From Ceratodon purpureus (Eukaryota; Streptophyta; Bryopsida; Pseudoditrichales; Ditrichaceae), in contig CM026431.1 of NCBI GenBank assembly GCA_014871385.1, positions 7,747,778 through 7,811,777 of the forward strand: a DNA stretch of 64,000 nt, in the 5' to 3' direction. Below the pieces are notes generated by a model. The model was not told where the DNA came from. It ran no database searches and was given only the letters and a program-made list of their open reading frames with translations. The position numbers and the translations under genes are program-made. How positions within the stretch are numbered: position 1 is the stretch's first letter; every line of letters begins with the position of its first letter. Below, piece after piece: positions 31,625 through 58,405 of the stretch.

Positions 31625-31634
31625 GATGTAACAG
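31625..31634. repeat. Left target-site duplication of the giant element
   Basis: GATGTAACAG here is repeated exactly at 58396-58405, directly outside the opposite terminus. Confidence 0.85.
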
Positions 31635-31755
31635 CGGGCATTCTGGTGTGGCAGCGGCGAGCACTGAGCAGTGAGCGGTGAGCAGCCAAAAAACGCACCG
31701 GGGGTCAAAAGTGAGCAGACAAAAAACGCACCGGGGACCCTATGACCGTGGAAAA
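31635..31755 (+). repeat. Left terminal inverted repeat of the giant element
   Basis: Of the outer ~40 bases about 30 match the inverted right end, and the following ~65 bases match almost perfectly. It contains GAGCAGTGAGCGGTGAGCAG and two copies of AACGCACCGGGG spaced about 36 bp apart. These sub-terminal repeats are candidate transposase binding sites. Confidence 0.85.
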
Positions 31756-31932
31756 AATTACCCCCGGGGTTCCTATAAACCTATGAGCGAATGAAGTTGA
31801 AAAATGAAATTTAGACACCAAGATTCGAGAATCCGCAAAATATATATAATGAAAAAAAATTGTACATACTAAAAATGATTCTTAGAATCACCGGGGGGGG
31901 CTGTCACTGTTCTCGGAATTGGAAGGCTTAGG

Positions 31933-32541
31933 CTACTCATTATCCTCTACCCAATCAAAATCTTCCTCTAAGAAAGCCGATGGTCCGGGAGCTCCATTGC
32001 CAAAATCAACAACGTTGTCCGTAGAAGTCCATGTTGATCTGAGTCTTGGAATGTAGTAATGAAACAGCTCGGGTTCTAGACATGATATCCCGGAAGCACT
32101 CTCAACACGCCTGAGTGTGCGAACGTCGTCCTCGGTCCAGTCTATCTGGCCTCGATTTGATCGGATCACTTGACGAAGCTGCTGGACGTCAGAGAACATG
32201 TCCACCTCCTTACCATGCCGTCGATCTTTGAACTTGTCGGTCACTCTCGAAACGAACTCCCTCAGCTCCCAATTATGCCATGGTAACCCGTCCTGCATCC
32301 AGTGGAAGAAGAAGGGTAAGTGAGGTACACAATCTTGCAGAAAATGCAAACACCTAACTTAAACCGAAGGGAGTAAAGTAAATTCAAAGATATTCAAATC
32401 AACAGAAGAGGCAATGAATCGAACCCGGAGCATTTCTGAAGTTGGAGGCATCGAAGACTTGATCTCCTCTCGTAACGAGGTATGGCTAGTGGACGAGGAT
32501 TGAACATGCTGGGCAGAGGGGGGAGACTGATCCATGACCAC
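31933..32541 (-). CDS. Hypothetical acidic protein, two exons, element cargo
   Basis: Exons 32541-32425 and 32292-31933 join in phase across a 132-bp GT-AG intron to give 158 residues. The N-terminus is serine/threonine-rich. The body begins DGLPWHNWELREFVSRVTDK and contains an aromatic/acidic C-terminus ending FDWVEDNE. No domain is recognised. It is the first gene inside the left terminus and reads towards it. Upstream, at about 32832, is a palindromic TCGGATCCGA copy of the element-wide motif, which may sit in a promoter shared with the divergent gene at 33009. Confidence 0.5.
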
Positions 32542-33008
32542 GGTGTTTGCAAGAGAATGAGAGGAACGATGAATTGAAGCTTAGGTCTGCAATGTAATTC
32601 TGAAAACAAGCTAAGGGGCTGGGAGAGAGAAGGAGCAATGCGTTTGTATGAGGTACCTCCTAGCAACTAATAAGAGGCTCAGCCAACGGTGGAGGAAACC
32701 AATCATAAATATTAGCTCTTAAGTGGAGGATAATCAAAACAATTTTGGCGGCCATGGCACATTGAAATAAACACACACGTACGGATATACTGAATGCCTT
32801 ACCCTTCAACATCTTAGTCTTCCAAAACATGATGTCGGATCCGACAGTCAAAAACTGGACTACAATGTTATTGAGGTACTGCGCATTAATGTGTGAGTTT
32901 AGGGTTAACCTCTTTGGATTTGGAGGATGTGATCTCAAGTTTGTCTCTCTTGTGTTATCACTTTTTTTTGTGATTCGTTTTTAGCCTCCTTAGTTTGAGA
33001 ATTGTAGA

Positions 33009-33629
33009 ATGGACTTCGCAGTGATCACCGACTTGTTCAGCCAGAGTTGGGTCACGCCCGAGTCAGCGATGGCTGAGCTCTTTCCAGACCTCATGCCCGA
33101 GTTGCATCGAGAATACATTGAGAACTCGGACTGGTGCTATGACTACATGACGCTGCTTGAGAACCTGCGACAAAGAGGTGATCGATGGGTGCTGCTGATT
33201 GATTCCATGCCAGCATGGTCGGCGTATGTGGTGGCTTTCAAAGAGTCGCGAGATGCAAGGAAGCGGAAAGACGAGTGGGGTACAGGTATGGTTCATGCAT
33301 ACTGGACTGAGGCCCTCACGTTGTTTATGACAGACCGGGTTATCCCATTTGAGATTGACGAGAAACTTGTAGAAATGGAGCTCCGGGATCTTTCATTGCA
33401 GCAGAAGGTACTTTTGCGTGACCACCTGCGAAATAGTTACACCATGGAGGTGATGGGCCCTCCTACGGGCTACAGCATTGGCCAGTCCTCCATCTCTGGA
33501 CCAGGGTCTTCATCCAACGAGAGGAAAGTGTTTCCTAAGTATTGGGCACCACGAGCACTGCGTTGCGGTCTTCTCTCGTGGCCTTTGCGAAGGAAGGTGC
33601 ATCTCAACGCGGTGCTTGGAAAGCGATAA
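33009..33629 (+). CDS. Hypothetical protein, element cargo
   Basis: This is a single open frame of 206 codons starting at the first ATG after a T-rich leader. It is acidic and rich in Trp and Tyr in the first 150 residues (DWCYDYMTLLENLRQRGDRW, AYWTEALTLFM), then becomes serine/glycine-rich and basic. I recognise no domain. It diverges from the 31933-32541 gene, and the palindromic motif at 32832 lies between them. The last ~40 residues look lower in coding quality, so an unseen splice near 33,410 is possible. Confidence 0.45.
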   Translation: MDFAVITDLFSQSWVTPESAMAELFPDLMPELHREYIENSDWCYDYMTLLENLRQRGDRWVLLIDSMPAWSAYVVAFKESRDARKRKDEWGTGMVHAYWTEALTLFMTDRVIPFEIDEKLVEMELRDLSLQQKVLLRDHLRNSYTMEVMGPPTGYSIGQSSISGPGSSSNERKVFPKYWAPRALRCGLLSWPLRRKVHLNAVLGKR

Positions 33630-34467
33630 TGAAAACAAGGTTCGTGTAATCCTTTCATTCAATGTTTTTGCCGTAGCAACTCTCAGGCTCTACGATAGAT
33701 ATTGTCATGGTCAACGTGGTTGCTAATTAAAAATGTCTACTTAATGTTGCAGTTGAGGGAGTAGTTTCAATTATCACTTAGTTTGTTATATGCCAAGAAT
33801 TTTATATGAATTGCGTATTCAGTGGTGGGCAAATGGATTGTTGCATTTTAGGGATTTACGCCAAAGTCGAGTTGATTACATCAAGGTGACATCCCTCATC
33901 AACTTAAAGTTTGAAATTGGCATTTTTTCATGTAACATTCTATTAAATTTAGGCTGGTAGAACTAGAGTGGGGAAATCGGATTAATGCTTAAATTCTACT
34001 AATGCGGCCAGGCGCTCTTAAGTGGAGTATACTAGTATGTATAAAGCTCTCATGATGATTGAGGATATGATTTACGACTAATTAAAGGCTGGAACTATAC
34101 TTCAACAGTGGATAGCCTTCAGAAGGCATGTATGTCCTGAACTGCATTGGTAGTAAAGAATTGCACTTGTGAACTATGATTCATGAAAATGGCCCAGTGT
34201 TTCTCATCATTCAGAAGGGATGCATCCAAACATCTACTTTCATATACTGTAGACTAGATGAATGTGAATCACACCACTTTTAGAGTTTTGGTAGCAATCT
34301 GAAGATGACTTCCTACTTCAAAGTGGGGGTTACCAAGGGTGAGCTAAATTTGGGGTCAGCAAATTAGATAATGAGCTCTAACCGTGTGTCGGATCCGATA
34401 GAGAAAAATTGCCTCACCATGATCTCTCCGATGTTGAGTTATAGTTGCCTCGCAGCAGATACCCTCT
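33630..34467. other. Non-coding spacer
   Basis: No gene is supported. A single degenerate copy of the element-wide motif (TGTCGGATCCGATA) is at about 34395. Confidence 0.4.
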
Positions 34468-34487
34468 AGGTGAACCCTGGCGGTTAC
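34468..34487 (+). repeat. Direct repeat bounding the captured UVR8 segment, left copy
   Basis: AGGTGAACCCTGGCGGTTAC recurs with one mismatch at 35847-35866. The two copies bracket the UVR8-like fragment. Confidence 0.7.
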
Positions 34488-34878
34488 AGAAAGATTTAAA
34501 GAGGGTATTTATTTATTTACTTATTTTTTGCATACCTATATACTTCACCCTGGGTTGAGATCGCAAGACAATGGCTGTCACCGCAAGCCATGTGTTTGAT
34601 CTCAAGGCCCTGAAGAACCCTGATAGGATGGGGCAAAAACAAGTCGCTCGAGTTCCCGTGTCCAAGTCGGCCAAAGTCTCCCCTGTGAACAGGCGAGCTG
34701 TTACTAGGTCAATATTACAATTCACGCGCAGGACAAAGCATCAAAGCCCATACAACAGCTCAATTGCAAATCCATTACTCCAAAAATGAACCAGAAAATT
34801 CCATCAAAAATATTTTTGGACTGCAAAGAAATCAACCTAATTTGAGCTTCACAGCTACAAAAGAAGTACCGAACTCAC

Positions 34879-35273
34879 CATCCCCAACTATACACCGTCC
34901 TGATTGCATCAGAGCGCGCTGTTGTATGATCGGCACCACATGTAATGGCCGAAACTTCACAATCACCAAGAGCACTCACAATGGTCGGCAAGTCGCGGTC
35001 TGTGGCATCGCCATGGCCTAGCTGCCCATCTTCGCCGCGACCCCAAGAGCATACTATGCCTCCAACTGCAAGCTCACATTGTAACCCATCGTGAGCCTCA
35101 CGGTTCAAGTGCTCAAGAATTGAAAACTAATAACCAGAATAACAAACTTCACTAAGAAAATTGCAAAAGGACGTTACCAAGCAGAGCCACTGTATGGTCA
35201 CAACCCTGCGAGAATCGCCCCTCGGCCCCGGTGCTTTGCTAGGGTTGCCGTAGTTCATTGACATATCTTCCAT
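34879..35273 (-). pseudogene. Captured 5' fragment of a UVR8-like RCC1-repeat gene, frameshifted
   Basis: On the minus strand an exon from 35273 (MEDMSMNYGN) to 35178 leads to an exon 35065-34879. Together they read CDHTVALL-V-GGIVCSWGRGEDGQLGHG and then ITCGADHTTA and VYSWGW. The GRGEDGQLGHG blade and the YSWGW end are diagnostic of the UV-B receptor UVR8 and its close relatives. UVR8 is a seven-bladed beta-propeller of about 440 residues, and only the first blades are present. One extra G in exon 1 (GCAGGGTTGTGAC for GCAGGTTGTGAC) shifts the frame. The last exon still has a donor GTGAGT but nothing follows. Upstream sequence to 35850 probably came along as promoter and 5' leader. It is a Pack-MULE-style host gene capture and not expected to be functional. 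Confidence 0.75.
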
Positions 35274-35846
35274 GTTTTCTATCTACAGGAGCATAAAATT
35301 CAAGCAAAATTCTCTAGTGAAGTTTGAAGACTCCTTCCAATTGCTAAACTAAGACCCAAATTCTGAACAGCCCCTGCACTCTCGCAGGTAAACCCGTCAT
35401 CCCAACACATAAAGACCGTTTCTTAGTTACATGTTCGCGAACGAATGTGCGCGAGTCTGTCATCTGCTGGAAGAATCCAAACCACCCAATGCCGCGTCAG
35501 TGAGTAACTCCACACCCGCTTCAAACCCATCTCCCGCACCGCGCTATGGCTACCAAACTGGTCACTAATTCCGCCCGTCGACGTAACCTAAATCGAACCA
35601 CCTTAATCAATCAGAAAAAAAAACATGGTTCCATTGATTCTTAGATAAGTCCAATGGCACGATCACGAGCACAATCCCTGGCTCCCGCAACCAGAGCCCA
35701 AAAACTTCAAACACAACGTCTGACACCGAAACTGGGCAATGATTCGGCTCAGAGGTAACCTGTGGCGGAAGAGGATGCACGCGTTTGACTGAGTCCTGGA
35801 AGGCGAAGAGGAGGGTGGAGTGACAGCCCACGAAACGAAATCATCA

Positions 35847-35866
35847 AGGTGAACCCCGGCGGTTAC
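35847..35866 (+). repeat. Direct repeat bounding the captured UVR8 segment, right copy
   Basis: AGGTGAACCCCGGCGGTTAC, 19 of 20 bases identical to 34468-34487. It overlaps the left arm of the GC hairpin module that begins at 35854. Confidence 0.7.
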
Positions 35867-35933
35867 TCTAATGAGCCCAAAACATCAGAAAAATCCGTCA
35901 GATGGATTTTGAGATTTGGAAGAACCGCCGGGG
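35854..35933. repeat. GC-hairpin module 1 (CCCCGGCGGTT ... AACCGCCGGGG)
   Basis: Perfect 11-bp arms at 35854-35864 and 35923-35933 enclose ~58 bp that include TCCGTCAGATGG, a variant of the element-wide motif. Related modules are at 39302-39381 and 42916-42995. Confidence 0.7.
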
Positions 35934-36539
35934 TCGGGGCTGGGTGCTGCTCGGAAGGTGCTTCTGAAGTCTTAGACTCGTGAACATTAGTTGACTTATG
36001 AACGGGGTAGTGTAATAGGAGACATATGATGGGGGTCATACAAGTGACTAACTATTTATAGAATAAACTAGTTGATTTAAAGAACAATGGTATGCAAATA
36101 TCCGAATTGATACTTTTACAATATACACTACAAGGTAAAAGATTCCATAATCAGTTTAAACCATAAAAAGGGAAAGGAATTTGTGAACTCTATGTTGATA
36201 GAACGTTAATAAATGATAAATTAAATAATCAGAAATTGAATTATTGAATTTTAAAAAACCGTCAATAAATATTTTAGAAAAAAGAAAGCAGTGATAAATA
36301 TATTAGGCATAGGGGTATCAGGGTTGAGTATGCTATAAGCCATCACCATGTGCACACCTTGGAAGACTTTTGCAATCCTCCAGGGTCAATAAGAGGATTC
36401 ATATCTATAAGATTAATTAGAATATTCATATTTACAAACCATTAGTCATAGTCTTTAAGCTCAAGTATAGAACAGAGACATAAAAGGACTTGAAATGAAA
36501 ATGTCTTTTTATATGAAGAAAATTTTAGAATATAGTCTA
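35934..36539. other. AT-rich spacer
   Basis: No coding region was recognised. A TATTTATAG box occurs near 36051 on the plus strand, but no plus-strand frame follows it, so it may be a relic promoter. Confidence 0.3.
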
Positions 36540-36818
36540 TTACAGGTTTAAACCAAAATCGAGAAGACCGCGGCCAACTTCGACAGATGCATGAGCTTTA
36601 ATTTGATCAAACACAACGTTTTGCTTTATTGGCACACCATGATCATATATATTTTCGAAGCAATCTAGCCATACCTTCTTGTGCATATTATTTGTAATTT
36701 CAAATGGTGACAATACATTCTGTATAATTTCTTCATCAAATGATTGTACTTGTAGGAAAGTTGTCAAAATTAAGACATAGAATAGTGAAAAAACGCATTT
36801 AAGTCTATGATCTGCCAT
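36540..36818 (-). CDS. Small secreted protein, possibly S-protein-homologue-like
   Basis: The 92-codon frame starts with a clear signal peptide (basic start MADHRLK, hydrophobic core FSLFYVLILTTFL, probable cleavage after VQS). The mature ~65 residues contain FEITNNMHKKVWLDC. This recalls the opening beta strand and first Cys of plant self-incompatibility S1/SPH proteins (V-x-I-x-N, then L-x-x-HC). The rest of that family's pattern is weak and the protein is shorter than usual (about 110-140). It may be truncated, or its second exon missed. It would be exported by the host cell if expressed. It looks like captured host sequence rather than a transposition gene. Confidence 0.4.
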   Translation of the reverse strand: MADHRLKCVFSLFYVLILTTFLQVQSFDEEIIQNVLSPFEITNNMHKKVWLDCFENIYDHGVPIKQNVVFDQIKAHASVEVGRGLLDFGLNL

Positions 36819-37731
36819 GCTATCAAGTAAATGTGAATTCTAATTGAAGATTAGGAAATTTAAAATTACGAGGACAGAATTTTTTTTTTTTCAAATGTTG
36901 ACAAAAAGAGTTGTGCATTGTGCCCATCCTTCCATATCACTCATGATGCCTTATCAGTAAAAGATATACCCTCTGAATATAGAGAACGGTTTAGCATAAT
37001 AGTTATTTAATTCAACGATATTTAGTACATATCACGCACATTTCCAATAGCAAATTGCTGGACACGTACACTTGCAAGCACTTAATGCTCATATTTAAAA
37101 ACTGTTAAAGAAAAAGTACCGACTATATTTATTTAATCTGAGGAAATAAAATGATAGGAAAAGTATTAGGTGAATAATCGGGAATGATGGTGAGGCACCG
37201 GCGAACAGTATAACAAAATTTGTAGTTATTATCGTAAGTGCTGATAAATATCCCATAAATGGGGAAACTTTGTTTTTTCTTATTGTTAATCACTGTAAAA
37301 TAGGAAGCCACTCATTCCACCTCCACAAGTATAGTGAATTCTTTAAGGGTCCGAAAATAGGTGCTGCTACCATAGAACCTAATTAGTTTATAGTGGCCCT
37401 CTCAGTATTGCTCAACTGATTTAACTGAGTGTCAGTTTCTGAGTTGATTAGTATAGAGTTTAGCAGCAATCAAGTGTCCATGAAACTCTATGTGATGTTA
37501 TGGTTTATTTGGAGCATGTACAAAATAGAAAACTCCAAGGATTTCAAACAAGCCGAAATAGAAAACTCCAAGGATTTAAAACAAGCCGATTTATTTATTT
37601 ACAAAAATTTCATGACGCTACTCATTGAGAAGTGTTGGAAGGGCTCTAAATGTTTCATAGTAGCATCAGAATGTAGTTAGCCAAAAATAAAGTAAGCCGC
37701 TTAAAACACATATATGTACAGAATCAAGTAT
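36819..37731. other. AT-rich spacer
   Basis: No gene was recognised. A 26-bp direct duplication (AATAGAAAACTCCAAGGATTT) lies near 37525 and 37557. Confidence 0.4.
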
Positions 37732-39101
37732 CTACTTATCCGAATCGTCGTCATTGTCGCTCAGAAATACGATAGGGTTTCTATGACTATCTACAGCGTC
37801 GTAAACTTCCTCTCCAGCGTACACTAGATAATCGGAGTCTTCGTTTTCAGAAAGATAACCAGCTTCCTCCGGGCAGTACTCTTTCCCGTCACCGCCAGCG
37901 GCAACGTCTTCCATCCATTTTTCGACCCATGCGGGGAGACCATCCTCAGAACTATTGACTTCGAAGCAGATAGAGCGTCCGTGACCTTCCACACACATGA
38001 GGTGCATCCGGTCCTTGGTTCGAGGAAGTGATTCGCTACTGCGCTCATCGTGCTCCCGGGGTGGACTTGAAGGCACACGGTTCAGGTCCGGCACTTCGAG
38101 GACAGGTGGGCTACAAAGTATAGGACAGGTGCAAGCACCGGGGGCGGGGCATGTTTTGCAGAGCATTGCAGCGCTCGAGGATGGGTTTGCCATCTGCGAA
38201 AACATAAGAACACAATGAGTGACATAAGTACATCATTCAAAAAGAAGATATCCCATACCTGTCACAATACAAAACAATTTCTACTTACACATCCAAGGCA
38301 TTATCTTTGAGAGAAGCATAAGACTACTAGCAGGATCAACCACGTAGCCGTTCCTTCTGTCCACAAGTTACTCACAGCGATACGAAGTGCTAACGTATCC
38401 GCAAAGATGGACGACTCTAAAGACTCCCAAGCCGCCAGCCACCGAGAACAAACCTGCCAAGAAAATGTCAACACACAAGGGGAAACATTAAACCAGTGTG
38501 TGACCCTTTATCACAAGGTTTTACAGTTGAGTGCGCATCATCGTGCCGATTTGAACCTCTATGAAGCCCCGGTCTATCGAGGTCCTGGCAAGAGAGCAAA
38601 TAACCCGCCCAACTTTCTAGATCGGAACCCACTGACGACTCTGAAGATCACCACGCCGCGAGCCACCGAGTTCAAACCAGCCCAGACATACCAACTGTCA
38701 CGGGCACACTTATAACAACCTTACGTAACCCCCAATTGGATGGCAAAATGCCGAGACAATGACATTATTATATGTGTGTGACCCTTTGTCACAACGTCTT
38801 AAAGTTGAGTGTGCATCATCTTGCCCATATAAACCCATTAAAACAAAAGCCGCCGTCTAAAGAGGTCGGGGCAACAGAGCAAATAAGATGCCCAACTCCC
38901 CAAACCCGAAGCCACTGACGACTCTGATGAGTCCCAAGCCGTCAGCCACCGAGAACAAAGAATACCAGAAAAATCAACACTCAAAGGAAAACAAGAATCC
39001 AACATTACGTAACCCCCAATCAGATGTGCAAAGCTACAACCTCACTAGAGAGAAATTGACGTAGAAACAAAGAGATAAAAGAGTAGATGAAGAAACGCAC
39101 C
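37732..39101 (-). CDS. Acidic protein with an EAR-type DLNxxP motif, element cargo
   Basis: The coding exon runs 38193-37732 (153 residues from MANPSSS). It is preceded by acceptor TTTTCGCAG and by a 5' leader exon ending at 39101 with donor GTGCGT. The protein has a Cys-rich start (CKTCPAPGACTCPILC, a candidate small metal knuckle) and then PDLNRVP, an exact match to the plant EAR repression motif DLNxxP that recruits TOPLESS-type corepressors. A WVEKWMEDV helix and a very acidic tail ending DNDDDSDK follow. No known family was recognised. A TATTTAAA box at 39146-39153 and the element motif at 39342 place a promoter just upstream. The large 5' intron holds a ~280-bp tandem duplication. An earlier start at 38205 (MFSQ) is possible if that intron is retained. 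Confidence 0.55.
38495..39030. repeat. ~280-bp tandem duplication
   Basis: GTGTGTGACCCTTTATCACA near 38498 recurs diverged near 38776, and TTACGTAACCCCCAAT near 38723 recurs near 39006. The offsets of 278 and 283 bp show one tandem duplication with small indels. It lies in the 5' intron of the acidic-protein gene. The plus-strand frame at 38407-38715 is inside it and is not treated as a gene. Confidence 0.75.
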
Positions 39102-39145
39102 TTAATAGAATGAAGAGAATGTGATGAACAATGAAATAGGAGTGG

Positions 39146-39153
39146 TTTAAATA
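39146..39153 (-). promoter_or_regulatory. TATA box of the acidic EAR-protein gene
   Basis: Minus strand CCTATTTAAACC lies about 45 bp upstream of the end of the 5' leader exon at 39101. The element motif TCCGACAGATG lies ~190 bp further upstream. Confidence 0.5.
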
Positions 39154-39225
39154 GGCTTCAAGGTGGGCCGAAAAGGCGGCGCCGGCGGCTAGGTCAGAGG
39201 ATACCATGCGGCAATGGAAATGGCG

Positions 39226-39290
39226 ACGGCGGCGGCGGCGGCGGCATTCAGGTCAGGTGGCGGCGGCGGCGGCGGCGGTGGTGAGTCAAT
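39226..39290 (+). repeat. (GGC)n triplet tract
   Basis: Two GGC runs of six to seven units, separated by ATTCAGGTCAGGT, lie just upstream of the TATA box. A further run of GAGGGT units at 39395-39440 makes the whole promoter region G-rich on the plus strand. Confidence 0.85.
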
Positions 39291-39301
39291 AGTGTAGGGG
39301 A

Positions 39302-39381
39302 CCCCGGCGGTGTTGGCAATGGGCAAATGGATCCTCTAGAATCCGACAGATGCATTTTGGCATTGGCTTAGGCCACCGGGG
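39302..39381. repeat. GC-hairpin module 2 (CCCCGGCGGTG ... CCACCGGGG)
   Basis: Arms at 39302-39312 and 39373-39381 enclose TCCGACAGATG at 39342-39352. The module has the same length (80 bp) and plan as modules 1 and 3. Confidence 0.65.
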
Positions 39382-39479
39382 TGGGAGAAATGGTGAGGGT
39401 AAGGGTGAGATCATTGGTGAGGGTGAGGGTGAGGGTGAGTGATTGTGAGGGTTCTGGTGAGTGTGGGGGAGAGTGTTAA

Positions 39480-40205
39480 AATGATGTATCAATTTTTTTA
39501 TTTTTCTTTTTATATCAACACATAAATGAAAGGATCAAGATTTAAGGAACTTATCAAAGACAAAAAAAATAAATTATAATTTGAGAAATTAAGAGACTGA
39601 ATGGAATAAAAAAGAATTAAGTATAATATCTTTTAGATTAACGTGTGATGGATATGAAGTTGGTGCAGAATTATTTGCTTATAGAAGATGATGGAGAAGG
39701 TAGATTTGTAAAACTTAGGGTGATTTATTAAGAAGAATATCTGTATACGCCAAGATACTTAAGCATAAGTGAGAAGCTATGAGTTTGAGAATTGTGAGAA
39801 GGAAAAATACTATGAAGTTGATGTGTTTATTTATTGATAAAATGTCTGAATGGATAGAGTGATATGTGCTCGTGTTGAATTCTATTGAATGATAAGTGTA
39901 TAAGAGTCAAGTTGAAGAAATCTACGTATTTAAATTTTTAACAATGAAATAAGTAAGGTATGTAAATAATTTCATCATTCATTTGGATGATTTAATGATT
40001 AATATGAAACAAGAAACGGATCATAAACTAGTAATGAACATACTTTTAAACTACAGAATCGTATCAGTGGTATTTCAAAGTAGTAGATACATATCCAAGA
40101 TTATAATTTGCATTGTATTTTGTCCGTTTGAAAATTGATATTGCCTCTATTGTATTTGAATATAATTTAAAATAAGAACTCATTGATCATCTGCGCTTTG
40201 CGGTA
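39480..40205. other. AT-rich spacer
   Basis: No gene was recognised. The sequence AGGATCAAGATTTAAGGAACTT near 39530 recurs near 41994, followed by ATCAAAGACAAAAA in both places. The two AT-rich spacers are therefore diverged copies of each other. Confidence 0.45.
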
Positions 40206-41165
40206 CTATCTACGTGATGCAGCACTATAATACTCCCGAGCCTGTCTACAATTCCAGGGGCGTCGCCTCCTCCAAAATCGCCTGGTTCGTTGGGCAGGGC
40301 AAGGCAGTATTGCCGGAAGGGCAAAGACCACATGGGCTGGCCTCCTCACTCTAATAGGCGAGGATGGCGAGGGAGGAGACATCGGCGTTGAATCCTGTGG
40401 AGGAGATTTGGGTATGTAGCCCGGGGAGGTAGGCACATACACTGGGGATGTAGGCATATAAACTGGAGAGGTAGGCATGTATTGTGGAGAATGGACCTCG
40501 AACGGTCCACAACCTAAACCGTCAGGGCTTGCTCTGGCACAGGTACAGTACTGCTGATCAAATGAATCCGAGAGATCGGAAACATTAATTACGGGAATTG
40601 GGGTGGAGATTGACTTCTCAGAAGAATCAGAAAACACCTAGAATACAAGAAGTCATTAGAAGGTTATATTCCACTCATAAATGACAGTTGAGCAAATAAT
40701 TTACAAGCAGAAGTCTTCTATGTAAATCAGTGCAATACAAGGTTCAATGTACTATTAATTAAGTACCTCGTTCTCTGCAAGAGTCGGTACTTGATTACGG
40801 CTCCCCATGTTATCCTCAGAGGACTCCTAATCCATAACCAATGAGAAGAGTTTTAGAATTAAAAGCATTCTCCAAGCAAGGTAGAACAACCTCGGCCCCC
40901 CACCTCAATAACCACCTTATATAAGCTTACAATCAAACAAATTCACAAATGCAAGGCCCTCTATCCCCTCCCACCCCTCCTTCCCCTCCCACCCCTTTCG
41001 GCCCTCTATCCCCTCCCATCGGCCCTCTATCCCCTCCCATAAAGAAGATCAGAACTTGTTCTCATAGTCACCTTCGGAAAAGCTACTAACCTTGCTTGTC
41101 GGCATAAAACCCTGGCTTCGCACGTGGATCACAAGACACTCGTTGCACGTTGGTAACTGTCGAAT
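40206..41165 (-). CDS. Small protein with RNA polymerase II CTD-like heptads, element cargo
   Basis: Exons 41165-41091, 40826-40767 and 40637-40206 join in phase 0. The likely start is the ATG at 41102 (MPTSK), giving about 168 residues; another is MGSRNQ at 40808. Exon 3 has a CTCAR/GLGCG cysteine patch and then four consecutive heptads: YMPTSPV, YMPTSPV, YVPTSPG, YIPKSPP (40398-40481). These follow the YxPTSPx pattern of the Pol II largest-subunit C-terminal domain. A proline/serine stretch and a very basic Arg-rich tail (RRFWRRRRPW) follow. No catalytic domain is present. It may imitate the CTD and bind CTD-reading host factors. TATAAGTA at 41360 and the element motif at 41558 mark the promoter. 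The 5'-most coding exon is uncertain. Confidence 0.6.
40960..41040 (-). repeat. G-rich (minus strand) minisatellite in an intron
   Basis: Units like CGGCCCTCTATCCCCTCCCA are repeated about four times on the plus strand. On the transcribed minus-sense RNA this is GGGAGGGG, which could form a G-quadruplex in the first intron of the CTD-like gene. Confidence 0.7.
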
Positions 41166-41359
41166 CTGCAAAACAAGAGAAGAACGACAAATCAGCCCGG
41201 CCACGAGGACTGAATCTGTAAAGGAGCGAAGAAATAGAACTAAGCTACGAGAAGTCGATGCAAGTTGAGAATGCACAATAAGTAGAGCAATATAACGAAG
41301 CGAGGAACTTACCGAAAGAAAACGAGGTAGCAAGCGTCAGATTAGTAAGAGAATGGATA

Positions 41360-41367
41360 TACTTATA
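41360..41367 (-). promoter_or_regulatory. TATA box of the CTD-like gene
   Basis: Minus strand GGCTATAAGTATATCC is followed by a leader with a splice donor (TTTCG/GTAAGT near 41310). The element motif TCCGACAGATGG lies ~190 bp upstream at 41558, the same distance as in the acidic EAR-protein gene. Confidence 0.5.
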
Positions 41368-41779
41368 GCCCTAGAATGGCGGCGTCTTGGAAACCGAAAT
41401 GGCGGCTAGGGCAGTGCATGCGAACCGAAATTAGGCCATGGCATCAGGTCAGGGCACTTGCGGTTACGAATCGAGACTGCGCGGTTCCCTAAACAAGGCG
41501 GAAATCCAAGTGCGTGATCGAGGTCAGTGGATTTGAGGTAAGGCTGAAATTGATTGACAAATCCGACAGATGGAATCGCAGTTCTCCAAATATCACCGGG
41601 GGCGTAGGCTGTTGATGACATCCATGGGTGTCCGATAAGGTTGCTACCCGGGCACTTGGGGGAGATGCTTCTAGAGGTACTTGGGGGACAGTTAAGGGTT
41701 CATCGAGTGTGCATGACTTATGTGGTGCATATTCGAAGTTGTCGGAATGGGTAGGGTAAAATGTGTGCATGCCTTCCAT

Positions 41780-43690: not shown

Positions 43691-43696
43691 TTGCAA

Positions 43697-46600: not shown

Positions 46601-49600
46601 TTTTTGATCGCCAACTTGACAAGGTACCTTGCGGAAGTCGACACATCAATATCGTCTGTCGGATTTTTGAGATTATTTCATGTCTCCAAGTTTCCAAGGT
46701 ATCTAGGTAGATTGACACAAATAACCATCTGTCATAGGTTTTAGATTGTTTACGATATCTAATTTCCTGACGTACCTTGAGGAACTGGCCACATTGAATT
46801 CAACAGTCTAATTTCAGAGATTATTTCTACTGTCTTACTTCCCACAGTACCAAGGTAATTTGACACAATCAAAACCATATGTCGGATTTCAGAGCTAATC
46901 TAAACTCTCCAACTTGACAGAGTACCCTGCGGTAATCGACACATTAAAATCATCTGACACATTTTAGAGATTATTTCTTCGGACAAACATTCCAGAGTAC
47001 CCAGGTAAATGGAAACAATAAAATCATCTGTCGGATTTCTAAACTGGTTTGCTATCACAAACTTGACAAGGTACCTTGAGATGATTGACACTCGAAAATC
47101 ATCTGTCGGATTTTAGAGATAATTTCTTGCGACTAGTTTCCCAGAGTACCTAGGTAAATGTACAGAGAAAAACCATCTGTCGGATTCTAAAGATGATTTC
47201 TCGACTCAAACATTCCAGGGTACTTAGGTATTTTTCGCAGTTTGAGGCACATTTTCCTTAAAATTACTAAAAAAACACATCTTAGTGCAAATAATTGATC
47301 CAAATCATCAAAACGTATGTAAAAACTCTGTGGTACCTTGCTACCATGAGTGTTATAAATCGATCTGTCGGATTTTTTAGAAAATTTCCGCGAGCTCATT
47401 GGGCACATCCCCTCGGAATTAGAACGTCCGAAATTTCTCATAAAAATCCGACAGATCATTTTCGCGAGCTCAATGGGCACATCCCCTCGGAAATTGAACA
47501 TCCAGGATTTCTCATAAATATCCGACAGATCATTTCTACAAACTTAATGGGCACATCCCCTCGGAATTTGAACGTCCGAAATGTCTCATAAAAATCCGAC
47601 AGATCATTTTCGCGAGCTCAATGGGCACATCCCCTCGGAAATTGAACGTCCGAAATTTCTCATATAAATCCGACGGATCATTTTTAAGGAGCTCAATGGG
47701 CACATCCCCTCGGAAATTGAACATCCAAAATTTCTCATAAGAATCCGACAGATCATTTCTACGAACTTAATGGGCACATCCCCTCGGAAATTGAACGTCC
47801 GAAATTTCTTCCAAGAATCCGACAGATCATTTTAAAGGAGCTCAATGGGCACATCCCCTTGGAAATTATACATCCTAAATTTCTCATAAAAATATGACAG
47901 ACCATTTCTATGAACTTAATGGGCACATCCCCTCGGAATATGAACGTCCGAAATTTCTCATAAAAATCCGACTAATCATTTCTGCGATCTCAATGGGCAC
48001 ATCCCCTCGGAAATTTAACATCCAAAATTTCTCATAAAAATCCGACAGTTCATTTCTACGAACTTAATGGGCACATCCCCTTCGAAATTATACATCCAAA
48101 ATTTCTCATAAAGATTTAAAGAATAATCCGACAGACCATTTTTGAGATCAATTTCCAGTCATCACCACGAATTTTAACGTCCTATATTCAATGAATAACC
48201 CAATTGATCAACTCCAAAGTATTTACCTCGTTTTGAAATCCCTTGCCATGGACTGGATTTGCAACGGCTTGCTCTCTGTTGAACTTTGTTTGCAGCCTAT
48301 CCTTGGCTTCCTTCACGGCCTTGTCCACAGCTGCCCTCATCTCGTGCCCTGAATCATCACCAGGGTGCTCGTTGATCCAAATTTGAGAAGCCTCCTCTGC
48401 GACTTGGGCCAATGTTGCCTGTTTCAGTCCACGTGCCATTAACATCTCGGGACTTGAATCATCCAATTACGAATTGACAGCACTGATTTCTTATAACACT
48501 TACGCTGTGTAAAAACGTCACAAATACTTCTTGAGGCATCGAGTGCCACGACTTCTTAGTTGAACTCTTCGTGTGCGCCAGAAGATCCGGCGTTAGAATT
48601 CCACTCCTTTCCAGCTCCTCCACAGACATTTGCCCGTACGTCTGTATCTTGTGTAGAGTGTGCGGCAGCCTTTCTTTGACGTAAGCATCCTCATTGGCCC
48701 TGTGTCGAATACAACACACACTTCTTTAATATCAAAGATTCTAAATTTCCATGTTATTATATCCAACATCAACATCCGGAGAAAACACAATACTCTTGCA
48801 CAGTTTAGGACTCACTTGTTGATGGCATGCATTGCTGTCACTAGAGCTTCACGGCTTCCCTTCACATCGAGCAGAATACAGTCCGGCCTTCCGTTTGCTT
48901 TAGCCCATTCAAGATCATCTGGGTATTCCACTTCGATGAACTCCCGCCATGCCCTTGTGCGGTGGTTACCATCGAAGACATAAAACATCTTTCCTGTAAG
49001 ATCTTTTGTCTCCCTGTGCTGCCTGATCTCATCCTCGAACGCAGCGTTCAACACCTTCCAAGCGTTACACCATCCTGACTTCATCTCCTCGGTGACACTT
49101 GCGACGTCCCCCGTGTGCGATGTATCTGCAACATAAAATGCCCCAGACCCGGGTCTTATGCCGTTGAAGAACTTCTTGCAACTTCTGTACATCACTCTGC
49201 ATTGCTGGACGCACGAAATCACATGGGATTAACCGGCATAAGGGAATCTTGATCATTGAATATTGGTGAGGTCTGCGGCGCATTTTGAGTAATGCAGCGT
49301 ATGGGTCCGGTTTCAACTCCTCCCTGAATTGACGGAATGCTTGCCGAACATTCACAGGCTTTCGAGGAGGTTCAATCTCTTCCACCTGCCCACCAAGGCT
49401 CAATAGAGTATCAGCGCCGGCTTCGCCATCACCAACTTGGGTCTGATCCTCGGTCTGATCGTCATCCTCCTTGCTGTCCTTGTCCTTGCTGGGTTCTTGC
49501 TGAAACCAGTCCTCCTCCGGCTGCTCACGCGAGCCATCCTCCTGCTGCTCACGCGAGCCCTCTTCCTGCTGCTCGCTCGAGAACACCGCCTTGCCCACTT

Positions 49601-49778
49601 CATCATCTCCTTCGAGCAAGGAGCCCATAAAGTTTACTTTTGGTGGGGCCGTGCCATTACGGATGGGAGGTTGCGAACTACCCATATCCTCGTCCATGAA
49701 GGAACCTCTCGGAATATCGTCTATCACGCTCTTCACTGCCTCTGTGGCCGCGTCTACCATATCGTGGGAAGTGCTCAT
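43697..49778 (-). CDS. ParB-like / beta-class DNA methyltransferase fusion, seven or more exons, element cargo
   Basis: Exons 49778-48816, 48699-48504, 48445-48227, 46205-45987, 45869-44378, 44273-44045 and 43922-43697 give about 1180 residues. After an acidic leader, a ParB/sulfiredoxin-like domain starts near residue 177 (IPLCRLIPC) and reaches YVFDGNHRTRAWREF near 267, the GHHR-type signature. A basic linker has KKRKRGAK, a nuclear signal. The C-terminal part has motif IV first (ADLIIIDIPEG, ~849) and motif I last (VVVDIGAGTG joined by splicing to ASIKACRQSGRNIVALEDD). This is the beta-class order of N4-cytosine/N6-adenine DNA methyltransferases. Motif IV is DIPE instead of DPPY, so catalysis is doubtful. 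Exon 1 changes frame by one base near 49178 between DVQKLQE and FFNGIRPGSG; a mutation or an odd intron could explain it. The 2.0-kb fourth intron (counting only visible ones, the third) contains the 74-bp arrays. ParB-methylase fusions are known in phages and bacteria; here the gene is eukaryotic in structure. Confidence 0.72.
46430..47230 (+). repeat. ~74-bp tandem array 1 carrying ATCTGTCGGATTT
   Basis: About ten degenerate units, each with CATCTGTCGGATTT-AGAGAT and a GGTACCTTG or GTACCTAGGTAAAT block. Clear motif copies are at 46583, 46657, 46879, 47027, 47101 and 47175, 74 bp apart where regular. It lies in an intron of the ParB-methyltransferase gene. Confidence 0.8.
47362..48140 (+). 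repeat. ~74-bp tandem array 2 carrying the motif in reverse
   Basis: Ten units contain AATCCGACAGATCATTT and AATGGGCACATCCCCTCGGA followed by AACGTCCGAAATTTCTCATA. The motif copies (47447, 47519, 47594, 47669, 47742, 47817, 47893, 47966, 48040, 48126) are the reverse complement of those in array 1. The period is the same although the rest of the unit differs. The arrays meet near 47360. Confidence 0.88.
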
Positions 49779-50733
49779 CGCGCCCTGCAAGGTAGAGGCA
49801 CGTTACATGCAAGTCAATAGAAGGCCGCATTTCAGAGCACAACAAATACACCCAAATGCGAAGCATAACATCATAAACCCTAAGAAGTCACAAAAACCCT
49901 AAGCAACACTTACAGATGTAATGCGTATTATACGGCAATCCGTCACTAGTTGTTGTGCACTCCCAATGATTAAAGCCTTGAAAAAACGCCGCTCTTGACA
50001 CCCACAAACCCTTCTCGGCCACAATAATTCAGACCTCGCACTATCCACCTAAACCTTGCAACGGCAACCCAGATGGAGATGTGCTCTGAAGCCGCCCCTC
50101 TCAGACCCTCTCAAAACCTATACTTACACCATTTCAGCATACCCTTAACCTACCAAAGAACCTAACTCCAAACCCCCTCCATGCATCTCCGACCTCCAAC
50201 ACGACAACCCTCAGTAGACTGAAGAGCAAGGCTCCCCGTCTGTCAATTTATGCGTGCTTACTCCCTTGCCTCGAGTGGCTTCTAAGTCACACTTCTTGCT
50301 CACTCCCTTGCCACGATTAGCTTCTAAGCCACACTTCCTGCTCGCGGCGGCCCCCACTCTACCCTAACCGCGACAACCATCAATTCCTACAGCTAACTAC
50401 AATGATGACCGCACCAACTTCCTACGCAACGATAAGTATGACAATGACTGTGATGCATGCCAAGAACCTTCAAACTTTTAAAACCCTCATAAGCCATTAG
50501 TACACACCGCGGCCGGCTTCAACCCGGTTGGGTGATGACTACAACCACTCCCTCCTCTACGCCCAGCGTACCATGAAAATTGCGACGGCAAACTATTAAA
50601 CCATAAAACACTTATCATGACGATCACACCACTCACTATTCTGATGCCGCAAACCAGTCCTACGAGTACTTGATCCCGACCTGGCACTGGCTAGCAAAAA
50701 TCTCGCTGATCAATCATGATGCTACAGCTGCGT
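49779..50733. other. Upstream region of the ParB-methyltransferase gene
   Basis: A non-coding leader exon probably ends near 49914 (CATCT/GTAAGTG on the minus strand). The acceptor TTGCAG lies just before the start-codon exon. No other gene was recognised. Confidence 0.35.
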
Positions 50734-51108
50734 CTAGAACGTACCAAGACATCGTGCTGACAAGCTTACATCAGAATGTCGCGGCTGAAGAATGGAACTG
50801 GCGTGTAGATCGCTGAACACCCTCCTTGAGACGGCCACCGTCATTTGCCCGTCGACGAAGTGATTGCTGCTAACTTTCGTGGCCGATCCTCGAGTGTTGA
50901 CGCTCGGACACCCTTCAATCTTGGATCTCGAGTCCCTGAGAATCGAGCTTACTGAACGAACAACCTTGCTTTGACTCTTGCTCTGACTCTGATACTTCCT
51001 GTCCGTCAAGCGCAACCCCGTCTTACTCTTTCTGCGCTTCTTCTTTGATCTCTCCTGGGTTTCTTCACTGGGGGAGCCTAACCCCCCACTCCGATGTGAC
51101 TTGGGCAT
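50734..51108 (-). CDS. Hypothetical basic protein with nuclear-localisation-like cluster
   Basis: The 124-codon frame begins MPKSHRSGG, with a KKKRRKSK cluster near residue 22 and a serine/arginine-rich body. The start codon directly follows an acceptor-like CACAG, so it could be a second exon with a non-coding first exon upstream. No domain was recognised. It sits between the divergent ParB-methyltransferase and transposase genes. It may be an accessory DNA- or RNA-binding protein, but low complexity makes even its coding status uncertain. Confidence 0.35.
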   Translation of the reverse strand: MPKSHRSGGLGSPSEETQERSKKKRRKSKTGLRLTDRKYQSQSKSQSKVVRSVSSILRDSRSKIEGCPSVNTRGSATKVSSNHFVDGQMTVAVSRRVFSDLHASSILQPRHSDVSLSARCLGTF

Positions 51109-51550
51109 CTGTGACGGTGAACGTAAAACTTACTTCGAAGACAAAACCGGCTCATACTCTTATCAGATCCTTGATGCATTGAGAGAGAAATGAACCTCAA
51201 CCGTGCTATGTTGAAAATGACTAAGGCCAATGTGTGATGCACTTAGGCTAAATGTCCCCCACCGAGCTCTAAGTTCGCCTATTAATTGAGGTTCCATAGG
51301 GCGTCATAGGCTTTGCCATGACGGTTTCTTCTCATAGACGATTTATTTTTGAATCTGTCAGTCATTAATGCTGATTGTGTGCCCAAAATAAAAGCTGTTC
51401 AACTATATTCTGGGACATGATACTGGTCTTGAACCACGCTGCAATGGTGAACTATCACCTACTTGGTTACAAAACTCTTAAACCACCCAATGCAACAGCC
51501 TTCCTGCTTCACTTCGGCTCTTCCACTCTGTGCACATCTTACCCGTAGAG

Positions 51551-55112: not shown

Positions 55113-56155
55113 GTTTGCTTCTGATGTGTCTTTTTCCCCTACCTTCATCCTAGGGCGCTCGGTACGAACTCGGTGACATTTTTATTCCTATTACGTCACA
55201 GATTAAAGCGGTGGCAAAACTGCTCGTATTCATGTCGGATATTCCGATCATGTGTTGGCATGAGCATCGTTTAGTATACGGTTCAATCCAGACATTTTTG
55301 TATATTTGTATTTAATTCTATAAATATTCTAAGTTTTCCCAGAAATTGATCTACTTTATGCGCCAACGATAGTAAAATTTCTTATTATCAATGGTACCCA
55401 ATCACATCGAAGACATAGAATGCACATGCTCTCACTTCTCTGCTATCTAACTATTGCATCCATCCAAACGCCGTCGCAATTCTCATCCCGAATAACGTTG
55501 TCGTCATGGCATAATGAAGAATTCTGATACTGGGCCGGGTCCCCCTCATCACGGCCCCTTCCCAAACCCGGCTGACGGTTTTTTTGAGTCCACTTCGTTC
55601 CCCTCCCGCGGCAGGGTACCTTGCCTCAAGTCCGTCCCGGAAATCATCTGACGGATCCGGCACTACGTTCTGGGTCCGAACCAAAACCACGGGTGGCGCC
55701 CTTCCACCACTTCAGAGAACTACCCTACGGGTAACAAAATGACATCTCAGTAATTTAAGTCCGATAAAATTCACGTTGATCTCCCGGATGACAAAATATT
55801 GCAGGGATCCTACTGCCGGATTTTTTGGCAGGTATATATCCCGTTATATAATCATCCCGTTTGCTCCATTAAGAGAGATATATGTATTGTATTCTAAATG
55901 ATGATTAGATAATGTTTTGGAGGTCATCGAAATGCACGCTTTCCTCATAACCAGAGTTCAAAAAATCTCGGTTAACTCAATTGAATCCTGCCAGACTGCC
56001 GCCGAATTCGTGAGAGTACGATACACCTCAATCGATAAAGCTGTATTCAATTACCAATGTTTCATTGCTGATTCCGGCGCTCTGTGATTGCTTGTGGGAT
56101 GATCTCTATACATGAGGTTGGTGGAGATCGCATAATCATTCTCAGCTGAAGCCTC
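55113..56155. other. Spacer with motif-rich block
   Basis: The block 55527-55700 is GC-rich and holds CTGACGG (55573), ATCATCTGACGGATCC (55646) and GGTACCTTGC, all elements also seen in array 1. The minus-strand open frame across it (55451-55690) is not accepted as a gene. Confidence 0.4.
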
Positions 56156-56830
56156 ATGCCAATGGACCTCGCGATGAAACCAATCTATTTTAGCCTAGGC
56201 CGTAAATCGCGAATTATGTTAGACACCAGCTCCATGATGGATCCGCAGATCGGGGATATTGTATTTCGCAAACCCTCCGCCCAGGCCAAGATTGAGTTCT
56301 CACTCTACCAGTGCGCTGAGGATTGGTCTCAGAATTTTAAGACGTGGCTTTTGAAAGTGTTTACCTGCAGTGTGGTCTTTGATGATCAATTTCTCCATTT
56401 CGTTGACGCTCCAAAGATGATGAGGTGCATCATGCTTTTTGTCTGGGTACCTGGCCAAGGCTTTCAGGAAGCACCTTCCGGAGGAATCATGACACCTCAT
56501 ATTCCTCCGAGTGAGTCCACAACCTTTCATCGACTGAGTCAGGTGGGGTTCTTCCCGGACGGCAACAGCGTGACGTTATGTTTTGCGCAGCCCTCCCCAC
56601 CCGACCCAGTCACGTTTCTGAGAGTCGATTTCTGGCGAGACACGTACCGCCAGGAAGCGTATTCGGGGCTGCAGGTTCTTAACGTTGTTGACAACCCTTC
56701 CACGCAGTGCCCTACGCTGCGCATGATTTCTCTATGGAAACGAAATGGCGAAAGATGGATTTGTGATAGTTCTGTGATAGGTCCAAGTCTGCAGTCTGTA
56801 TCGGAGGTGGCGAAGGAAGTTCCCGTTTGA
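56156..56830 (+). CDS. Hypothetical protein, element cargo
   Basis: This is an intact 224-codon frame with good codon-level composition and internal patterns such as FFPDGNSVTLCFAQPSPPDP and FLRVDFWRDTYRQE. Alternating hydrophobic strands suggest an all-beta fold. No family was recognised. It lies downstream of the transposase in the same orientation with a 1-kb gap. The motif copies at 55573 and 55646 lie about 0.5 kb upstream. The start at 56156 is the first ATG; MKPIYF at 56174 is an alternative. Confidence 0.5.
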   Translation: MPMDLAMKPIYFSLGRKSRIMLDTSSMMDPQIGDIVFRKPSAQAKIEFSLYQCAEDWSQNFKTWLLKVFTCSVVFDDQFLHFVDAPKMMRCIMLFVWVPGQGFQEAPSGGIMTPHIPPSESTTFHRLSQVGFFPDGNSVTLCFAQPSPPDPVTFLRVDFWRDTYRQEAYSGLQVLNVVDNPSTQCPTLRMISLWKRNGERWICDSSVIGPSLQSVSEVAKEVPV

Positions 56831-57623
56831 CATCTATGTTGACAGCATCGTGATATAGTCGCTGTTTTGTAACAGGGTATAGTCGTTGTACTGCTTTTAA
56901 CTTGCTCCCTTAATACATATGTAATCACTTTGATATCAGTCTATCTTTGCCAAGCTTACATTTGCACATTGTTTGAAGCACTACACTTTAGTTCTTGAAC
57001 CAAATTGACAGCAAACTATGCATCATCAAGCCCCGTTTCACAAACAAATTGTCTGTGTATGTTGAGTTCTTTGTCACTAAACTGTCCCACAAACTATTTT
57101 CATTTCCTATCTCACTATAAGCCAGGTACCACCGGCTCCAGATGATGCAGTAGTCCGGCCGTCGGAGTCCCATGACACTCGGTCTTCCTTCCCTTCACCC
57201 TACTACCGTAGTACCTTACCCCTACCATTCTCCTGTATGTGGCTGACGGATTCTTCAGTAAGTTTAGTCTTGCCAACAATATCGAGGGTGCCCACCCGTT
57301 CAGAACTACCATTGGAATTGTAGAATTACGTCACGGTAACTTAAGATTTCATAATTAATATAAAATTTCATAACGCCGGCCGCCCTTTGCACTACGTCCT
57401 TGTTACGGATCTTAATTGTACCCAGAATGGAGGTGAAACATCACATTAGATCGAGTAAAATTGATATGCCAAAATTGAAATATTTTCTCGCCCCCCATGT
57501 CATTCTTTATTGTACCCAGGTTGGTTAAGATACATGATAACGACATTTAGATTTCCTAGGCTCGGACGATGCTACGGCTGCAACCACTAATGCAGTTTAC
57601 ACTTAAATATTTTGTTAGCCTTA
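56831..57623. other. Spacer
   Basis: No gene was recognised. A motif variant GGCTGACGGATTC is at about 57240, with GGTACCACCGG at about 57125. Confidence 0.4.
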
Positions 57624-58124
57624 CTACTGCTCAACGGCAATACTATCTTCTCCATCAACAGAAAAGTCTAGCCTCTCCCATCCTTGGTGTTCTTCAAGAT
57701 TGATTGCACTATCAGTCGCCGATATGGTTGGCGTTGTTGGTCTCTCTAAATGCTTGGGCAACTGCGACACGTACATCTTTCCGTCCCCAACGGCACCAGC
57801 ATATGGATTGGCCGCGCATCTCAACGTCCTTGTCACGATCGGTCTCATCATCTTTGGCTTCCAACACGGACTTGCGATCCTTGGAATGTTCCACGAACCG
57901 CGAAGCTAAGAATATGGGCCTGCTCTTCGAGGAATCAAGTTCTCCATGTTTTCCGCTTTGTCGATCACAGCCACTTCCCTTCCAGACTGAATCGAGTAGT
58001 CACCTAGGTTTGAGAGGATATCAATTACTTCGCACTCTTCCGCACTCGGAACCCAAACTTCACAGTCCTCTTTCACCATCCCCATGCCGCTAATCACTTG
58101 CGCACATCTGAGGTACCTCAACAT
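57624..58124 (-). pseudogene. Frameshifted hypothetical gene at the right end of the giant element
   Basis: On the minus strand coding-like sequence runs through three frames. It starts at MLRYLRCAQVISG (58124), changes frame near 57945 to LDSSKSRPIFLASRFVEHSK, and changes again near 57800 to NPYAGAVGDGKMYVSQLPKH, with a stop at 57624. Either the gene is broken by two small indels or it has introns I cannot resolve. The segments contain acidic and basic helices but no recognised domain. The element motif TCTGTCGGATTT at 58143 lies just upstream of the start. Confidence 0.4.
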
Positions 58125-58230
58125 TCTATGGTCGCCCAAGAGCGTCTGTCGGATTTTACAGTCTTTCCACTGCCAATATTTGGGGGCGGTACCTCGCAAT
58201 TTCCACGGTTATATGCCACACATGCTCGAC

Positions 58231-58395
58231 AAATTTCCACGGCCATAGGTCGAACGATGTCCCCGGTGCGTTTTTTGAACACGAAAATATTGGCCCCGGT
58301 GCGGTTTTTGTCTGCTCACTTTTGACCCCCGGTGCGATTTTTGGCTGCTCACCGCTCACTGCTCACTGCTCGCCGGTGCCACAGTAGCATCGCTG
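58231..58395 (-). repeat. Right terminal inverted repeat of the giant element
   Basis: Read on the minus strand this matches 31635-31755. It has three rather than two copies of the CGCACCGGGG block, so it is about 40 bp longer. The inner part CCTATGGCCGTGGAAA corresponds to CCTATGACCGTGGAAA on the left. Confidence 0.85.
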
Positions 58396-58405
58396 GATGT
58401 AACAG
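58396..58405. repeat. Right target-site duplication of the giant element
   Basis: This is an exact 10-bp copy of 31625-31634, abutting the last base of the right terminal inverted repeat. Confidence 0.85.

Follow-up and report, generated by a model that had tools for sequence, protein, structure and literature searches.

Giant transposons that move cargo genes are well known in fungi and are emerging in algae. The Starships of Pezizomycotina carry a tyrosine recombinase as captain (PMC12134995). In brown, green and red algae, giant transposons with ParB-methyltransferase proteins have been reported; Sola1-1_Ec32 of Ectocarpus, a 21.5-kb Sola-1 element, encodes a 1104-aa protein with ParB-like and N4/N6 methyltransferase parts opposite its transposase (PMC12477816). 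A survey of Mutator-like elements (MULEs) gives target site duplications of 8–11 bp, terminal inverted repeats (TIRs) of 14–500 bp (some longer) and mostly one or two open reading frames (ORFs) (PMC6446971), and arthropod MULEs measure 1.4–10 kb (PMC13359780). Mutator-family DDE transposases also move very large units, TnGBS and the integrative and conjugative elements (ICEs) of Mycoplasma (PMC6431247; PMC6030558). Here we analyze a window of 64,000 nucleotides from the moss Ceratodon purpureus (G000:C11:7747778-7811777, within a 362.5-Mb assembly of 151 contigs), in which an element of 26,761 bp occupies positions 31635..58395 on the + strand. With a probability of about 0.85, this element is a full-length copy from a large family of giant TIR DNA transposons, which have their own DDE-type, probably Mutator-like transposase and combine core genes with exchangeable ones. 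We assign the window copy to subfamily A of three subfamilies, A, B and C.

The moss element shares features with each of these systems. Mosses have a life cycle with a long haploid stage. Going by the published description, the algal elements are likewise giant, live in hosts with a long haploid stage and encode a protein of similar length opposite the transposase, 1104 aa against 1106 aa for the spliced moss protein (PMC12477816). In contrast, the algal system uses a Sola-1 transposase, whereas the moss element has Mutator-like features, a 10-bp duplication and a land-plant host; its CTD-like gene (named after the C-terminal domain of RNA polymerase II), its cargo exchange and its intron repeat array go unmentioned for the algal elements in the accessible portion of that report. 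Duplication length and long TIRs connect the moss element with MuDR, Jittery, VANDAL and Pack-MULE elements, as would its candidate motif order, its SWIM-like finger and the probable capture of host gene pieces. Compared with the 1.4–10 kb of arthropod MULEs, the moss elements span 15–60 kb; they hold about ten genes and do not match the Pfam MULE profile. A core mobility gene, exchangeable cargo and very large size recall the Starships, but the moss element has a DDE-type transposase and TIRs, and no recombinase match appears among the ORFs scanned against Pfam. A sequence-only reading of the window had called it a plant counterpart of Starships, which is apt for its behavior, core plus exchangeable cargo, and not for membership. 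TnGBS and the Mycoplasma ICEs are bacterial and conjugative, and no conjugation gene was matched in the moss element.

The boundaries of the window element agree to the base with those of the sequence-only reading. The same 10-bp duplication, GATGTAACAG, lies directly outside base 31635 (31625..31634) and base 58395 (58396..58405) and is exact on both sides, as that reading had it. The left TIR (31640..31769, +) and the right TIR (58261..58390, −) are each 130 nt long and show 84% complementarity. Inverted termini of more than 100 bp had been proposed, which holds, and an alignment from the first base, which does not: the outermost five bases of the two ends are partly different, and the inverted alignment begins at base 6.

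Ends of the same type recur across the genome. If up to two mismatches are allowed, the 29-bp left terminus is present at 83 places (61 without a mismatch), whereas the reversed pattern used as a control occurs 0 times. For the 266 bases of the left end, the best 40 of 237 candidates match at 94–100%; for the 266 bases of the right end, the best 40 of 229 candidates were scored as matches. The listed left-end and right-end matches could be joined into 21 pairs, of which 17 were read. Exact and mutually different 10-bp duplications border 12 of these 17 A pairs, one pair agrees at 9 of 10 bases, and four have none; copy C7_9.80, one of the four, was retained in the content comparisons. Since the single B and C copies read also carry 10-bp duplications, the family falls within the 8–11 bp described for MULEs, and the window element likewise has their long TIRs.

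Element lengths in subfamily A were estimated by pairing matches to transposase exon 2 with the nearest left end. Of the 89 exon-2 matches, 65 entered the estimate, B or more distant subfamilies and two C45 pieces being left out; 50 of the 65 found a partner, and the 15 unpaired ones were excluded from the lengths. The median of the 50 estimates is 27.4 kb; the shortest is 17.4 kb and the longest 72.9 kb, and those of 54–73 kb may reflect nested elements or mispairing.

Uninterrupted sites are present for three other copies. When the flanks of the 36-kb copy at C2:556816 are joined, 40 of the 40 matches listed (475 candidates) cross the junction uninterrupted at 91–94%; judged by eye, this target looks like a Ty3/gypsy reverse transcriptase. 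The joined flanks of the 25.5-kb copy at C6:104544042 match C6:102043279-102043488 at 100% over 210 of 210 bases and five further places at 85–99%, while those of the 17.5-kb copy at C6:55028157 are uninterrupted at 30 places (78–90%). For these two C6 copies, the 40 matches listed consist of 36 through-going ones and 4 to their own flanks. We notice that the 100% target and the occupied site (C6:104518503-104544042) lie 2.5 Mb apart, and their identity over 210 bp would fit either an insertion that happened very recently or a recent duplication. The sequence-only reading had suggested looking for further copies with the same ends, which the 83 termini provide, and for an empty site; the latter exists for these three copies and not for the window copy in this assembly, because its flanks are single-copy here. 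Together, the termini and the uninterrupted sites support its proposal: the element is a giant transposon with TIRs, its ends are complete, and it brings both a transposase and many other genes.

The transposase is encoded by two open exons. Exon 1 (51551-53575, +) contains the catalytic D candidates in IMFD and FMAD, followed by CxFH, and exon 2 (53664-55109, +) contains the E candidate in CNL[SA]ETVH and a SWIM-like CxC...CxH. The intron between them is short, in phase 0 and bounded by GT...AG in A and B; the donor in C was placed by eye and is less certain. IMFD and FMAD, then CxFH, ETVH and the C-terminal CxC...CxH are invariant in all three subfamilies. A D-D-CxxH-E order is expected of Mutator-like transposases, in which a SWIM finger is frequent without being universal. 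The SWIM profile PF04434 gives E 0.15 for the C transposase, below the cut-off, and no match for A; no Pfam family matches the spliced A transposase, and a PDB profile search with the transposase returned no match. Of the intact MULE-type transposase with a SWIM finger that had been proposed, the open exons and an invariant CxC...CxH pattern are seen, and a match to the MULE profile is not. On the basis of duplication and motifs, an assignment to MULEs is likely.

The three subfamilies share the two-exon transposase and the ParB-like/methyltransferase gene, in A, in the 26-kb B and in the 14.7-kb C. Seven A copies, including that of the window, diverge pairwise by 0.385–2.72% over a core of approximately 10.4 kb, and 40 of 10,400 core sites (0.4%) separate C7_15.83 from C6_104.5. 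Subfamily B comprises 15 full-length exon-2 matches at 82–83% protein identity; its representative, G000:C12:2694047-2720092, measures 26,046 bp and has the duplication CTTTCAGATC. For subfamily C we found at least 85 exon-2 matches, all at 97% or more, and 82 of the 85 among the matches listed are stop-free; A and C transposases are 43–47% identical. A C element of 14,726 bp with the duplication CTTCAAGGGC is nested inside the transposase of the A copy C1_14.76, at a site that is intact in the six other A copies read. The near-identity of C7_15.83 and C6_104.5 and the stop-free C exon 2 reveal that the family is recently active.

We also observed that the end types of the B representative are swapped relative to the A gene order, as would result from an inversion of the interior. 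Among the 54 top exon-2 matches, 2 of 11 A matches on C6 are stop-free against 33 of 43 elsewhere, so that decay is concentrated on C6, where many stops are TAG. C6 (110.5 Mb, 30.5% of the 362.5-Mb assembly) is a putative sex chromosome; in strain R40 of Ceratodon purpureus, sex chromosomes make up approximately 30% of the genome (PMC13120521).

Besides the transposase, genes L1 (31936..32358, −) and L2 (exon at 32994..33626, +) are found in all seven A copies read. L1 is 58% and L2 81% identical in B, with nonsynonymous to synonymous rate ratios (dN/dS) of 0.09 and 0.07. Across the six core exons compared between A and B (L1, L2, both transposase exons, one ParB exon and the large methyltransferase exon), dS is 1.1–3.2 and dN/dS 0.07–0.15. 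The core genes are under purifying selection.

The ParB-like/N6-N4 methyltransferase gene (44041..49802, −) has six exons, modelled on the sister copy C7_15.83. Searches of single window ORFs against Pfam and NCBIfam gave a weak methyltransferase hint (PF01555 at E 0.0035 in the single methyltransferase exon), which became significant once the sister copy was spliced: its product of 1106 aa, with one in-frame stop, matches PF01555 at E 3.7e-7, above the curated cut-off. The gene lies on the strand opposite the transposase in A, in B and in the C copy. Because its segments are collinear in all three subfamilies and packed within approximately 3.6 kb in C, a single fused gene is supported. In the window copy, the first ParB exon measures 964 nt instead of the 990 nt of five other copies (four of the five stop-free; the start pattern was not found in one further copy) and is therefore out of frame, with its two parts at 48815-49174 and 49177-49802. 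The ParB-methyltransferase fusion that had been proposed is probably one gene in A, B and C, its ParB half being a candidate, but it is frameshifted and broken in the window. A search of PDB with the ParB core yielded four matches, the best, at E 0.018, to an unrelated assembly factor, and we do not consider them credible.

Active methyltransferases of this type have DPP[YFW] as motif IV. The moss genes read DIPE in A, DVPE in B and DIPE in C, and since none of the three subfamilies keeps DPP[YFW], catalysis by the methyltransferase half appears doubtful. The long intron of the gene holds a repeat array (47384..48112) of 74/149-bp units with the motif TCC[GT]ACAnnnCATTT. In the six A copies looked at, this motif recurs at ~74-bp intervals (6–13 motifs each), and the same intron of the B copy has a related array with 10 motifs, mostly at ~149-bp spacing; shuffled sequences contain 0 to 0.05 motifs per sequence. 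Motifs within one array are not independent, and therefore the useful fact is that otherwise diverged A and B units keep the same motif.

The variable cargo region extends over 34463..43584. The window copy shares it with C1_14.76 from approximately 39,690 onwards (98.9%); with the other five A copies read, sharing is limited to patches. At 34875..35126 (−) lies an RCC1/UVR8-like gene piece (PF00415, E 1.6e-14), the captured UVR8 piece of the sequence-only reading. This fragment recurs at C7:16135881 (99%), and relatives at C2:17259511 and C1:13722857, presumably host genes, are 73–79% identical; for this reason, pieces of host genes were probably captured. An ORF with a putative signal-peptide-like start, judged by eye (36543..36839, −), is 87–91% identical in six other A copies and 78% in B (dS 0.33). 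The ORF at 37735..38232 (−) contains DLNxxP, which we take to be an EAR-like motif, and is 51–56% identical in other A copies and 63% in B (dS 0.62); the B version is thus closer to it than the best counterpart in either of two A copies compared with it. The CTD-like protein (40209..40637, −), correctly anticipated from the sequence, has three heptads of the form YxPTSPx (YMPTSPV YMPTSPV YVPTSPG), compared with four in C and seven heptad-like units, some imperfect, in B. Outside the region, a gene for a 226-aa protein (56150..56827, +) is 94% identical in B with dS 0.19.

These genes have a history different from that of the core. Whereas the six core exons have an A–B dS of 1.1–3.2, the 226-aa, 36543, CTD-like and 37735 genes stay at 0.19–0.62. 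The CTD-like gene has dS of 0.56 between A and B and 0.65 between A and C, whereas the A–C dS of the transposase is saturated. Within A, the CTD-like gene is found in the window copy and in C1_14.76 and was undetected in the five other copies read. Even C7_15.83 and C6_104.5, with their near-identical core, yield no alignment in a slot at 7.5–10 kb (blastn; plus strand, matches of at least 200 bases only). A core and an exchangeable region can be told apart because of the differing dS, the unalignable slot and the patchy CTD-like gene. From these sequence comparisons, the CTD-like and other cargo genes appear to have been exchanged between subfamilies later than the core split.

Two cargo genes have wider relatives. 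The CTD-like gene is abundant, with at least 209 matches (the best 150 of 1184 candidates scored), most of those listed open, and it occurs in all three subfamilies. Members of the 226-aa gene family at 39–45% identity lie at many other genomic loci and may mark further element families; a PDB profile search with the 226-aa alignment gave no match.

Several observations weigh against the reading of the element as a giant Mutator-like transposon with a selected gene set. An exact duplication is missing in 5 of the 17 end pairs, so that some pairs join the wrong ends or have undergone rearrangement; nested insertions, as in C1_14.76, may have lengthened the longer copies after they had inserted. 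Pfam MULE (PF10551) is matched by neither the A nor the C transposase at E up to 10, none of its 93 places in the genome lies within 5 kb of the listed transposases by eye, and hhalign against six moss MULEs aligns the same motif without significance (P 0.15, probability 0.4%). Two AlphaFold models, the transposase among them, were unusable (mean pLDDT, the predicted local distance difference test, of 37.0 and 39.7), and splice sites and exon models are predicted, as read from the sequence. Given the missing Pfam match, the non-significant hhalign result and the unusable model, we speak of a Mutator-like element and not of a MULE. The ParB half has a GNHR motif and a weak match to the phage ParB family phrog_1033 (PHROG) at E 0.13, with no ParB match in Pfam, and the intron motif is absent from the single C copy read. 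In single genes, a low dS could also stem from uneven rates or from constraint. Finally, not every ORF is under clear selection, because the right-end ORFs (57627..58208, −; 48–53% in B) and an S/K/R-rich ORF (50737..51129, −; 47% in B) are little constrained: A–B dS is 0.9–1.5 with dN/dS of 0.28–0.41, and within A dN/dS reaches 1.07 on few changes.

The unmatched MULE profile would fit a giant transposon of another superfamily (KDZ/Zisupton, Sola or EnSpm) in which a 10-bp duplication and a SWIM-like finger arose by convergence. Algae do have giant Sola-1 elements bearing ParB-methyltransferase genes, as well as giant KDZ and EnSpm elements (PMC12477816). We consider this origin unlikely: the spliced A transposase, which matches no Pfam family, does not match these superfamilies either, and 12 of 17 pairs have a 10-bp duplication. 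Duplications of Sola, EnSpm and KDZ elements are shorter, and the D...CxFH...E order with a C-terminal CxC...CxH is as in Mutator-like transposases. The nested C element in C1_14.76, the RCC1 fragment that the window shares with one further locus, the frameshifted ParB exon of the window, and the weakly constrained right-end and S/K/R-rich ORFs could instead point to an ordinary MULE that nested insertions and captured fragments have enlarged, with functionless passengers as extra genes. Such passengers would hardly be common to subfamilies with core dS above 1, with A–B dN/dS of 0.07–0.43, nor would 82 of 85 C transposases and most CTD-like genes be open among the matches listed. For the core genes this explanation is already contradicted, and overall it is improbable.

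Still less probable is an integrated virus or virus-like element of the Polinton or giant-virus type, which the size of the element and its ParB-like and methyltransferase genes might recall. Polymerase B, capsid, packaging ATPase and protease were unmatched in the ORFs scanned against Pfam, where small or multi-exon genes could escape. The first of these scans took in ten ORFs (nine of the 27 listed ORFs of at least 110 aa as wholes, plus overlapping ones), and later scans added others. A viral-contig collection yielded no relatives with the transposase and ParB queries, a type of scan that distant relatives can escape. A misassembly, a segmental duplication or chance inverted repeats could be considered since a single assembly is at hand and the window copy, with its unique flanks, has no empty site here. 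Chance inverted repeats are excluded by the 83 left termini against 0 in the reversed control and by the duplications in the end pairs; with the differing exact duplications, differing flanks and uninterrupted sites, this explanation as a whole is hardly conceivable.

We return to the giant Mutator-like transposon. Whole units of approximately 15 to 36 kb or more were inserted with a 10-bp duplication, as the duplications and uninterrupted sites show, and the encoded transposase presumably cuts and pastes the element. L1, L2 and the ParB-like/methyltransferase gene remain with the transposase as a core, and other genes occupy an exchangeable region and have moved between subfamilies, most likely via gap repair or recombination between element copies. 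The ParB-like/methyltransferase protein probably attaches to DNA of the element itself and would help it to escape silencing; the best candidate binding site would be the repeat array in its own intron. VANC, encoded by VANDALs, recognizes short motifs in the non-coding parts of related elements, whose methylation it lowers (PMC13317346), and a ParB-like protein acting on its own array would be comparable. The role of the CTD-like protein may be to attract transcription or RNA-processing factors. A bolder version, which we put forward tentatively and rate as rather doubtful, is that of a land-plant Starship counterpart on a DDE chassis: a giant Mutator-like superfamily that mobilizes cargo and reshuffles it among element families, shielded by a module of its own, with a ParB-like protein on its own intron array and a CTD-like protein that mimics the RNA polymerase II tail for transcription.

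As far as our searches reach, the ParB-methyltransferase accessory gene and gigantism are already known, whereas novelty lies in the Mutator-like chassis, the occurrence in a land plant, the exchange of cargo, the CTD-like gene and the intron array. A literature search, whose coverage lacks most subscription journals, returned no description of this moss family. With dozens of near-identical open copies in a land plant, the family is tractable for studying how a DDE transposase moves 25–60 kb and how cargo is exchanged. It also lets us ask whether haploid-dominant life cycles favor giant elements, an idea raised in PMC12477816. The ParB-methyltransferase with an altered catalytic motif, the intron array and the abundant CTD-like protein offer new handles on how transposons avoid silencing.

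Outside the element, the window contains two further repeat structures. At 20827-21313, two inverted repeats, one of 130 nt (88%) and one of 85 nt (89%), are nested around a 12-nt center; they may represent a further mobile element or a hairpin locus. Nearer to the left end, at 28743-28879, there are three tandem units of 45–46 bp.

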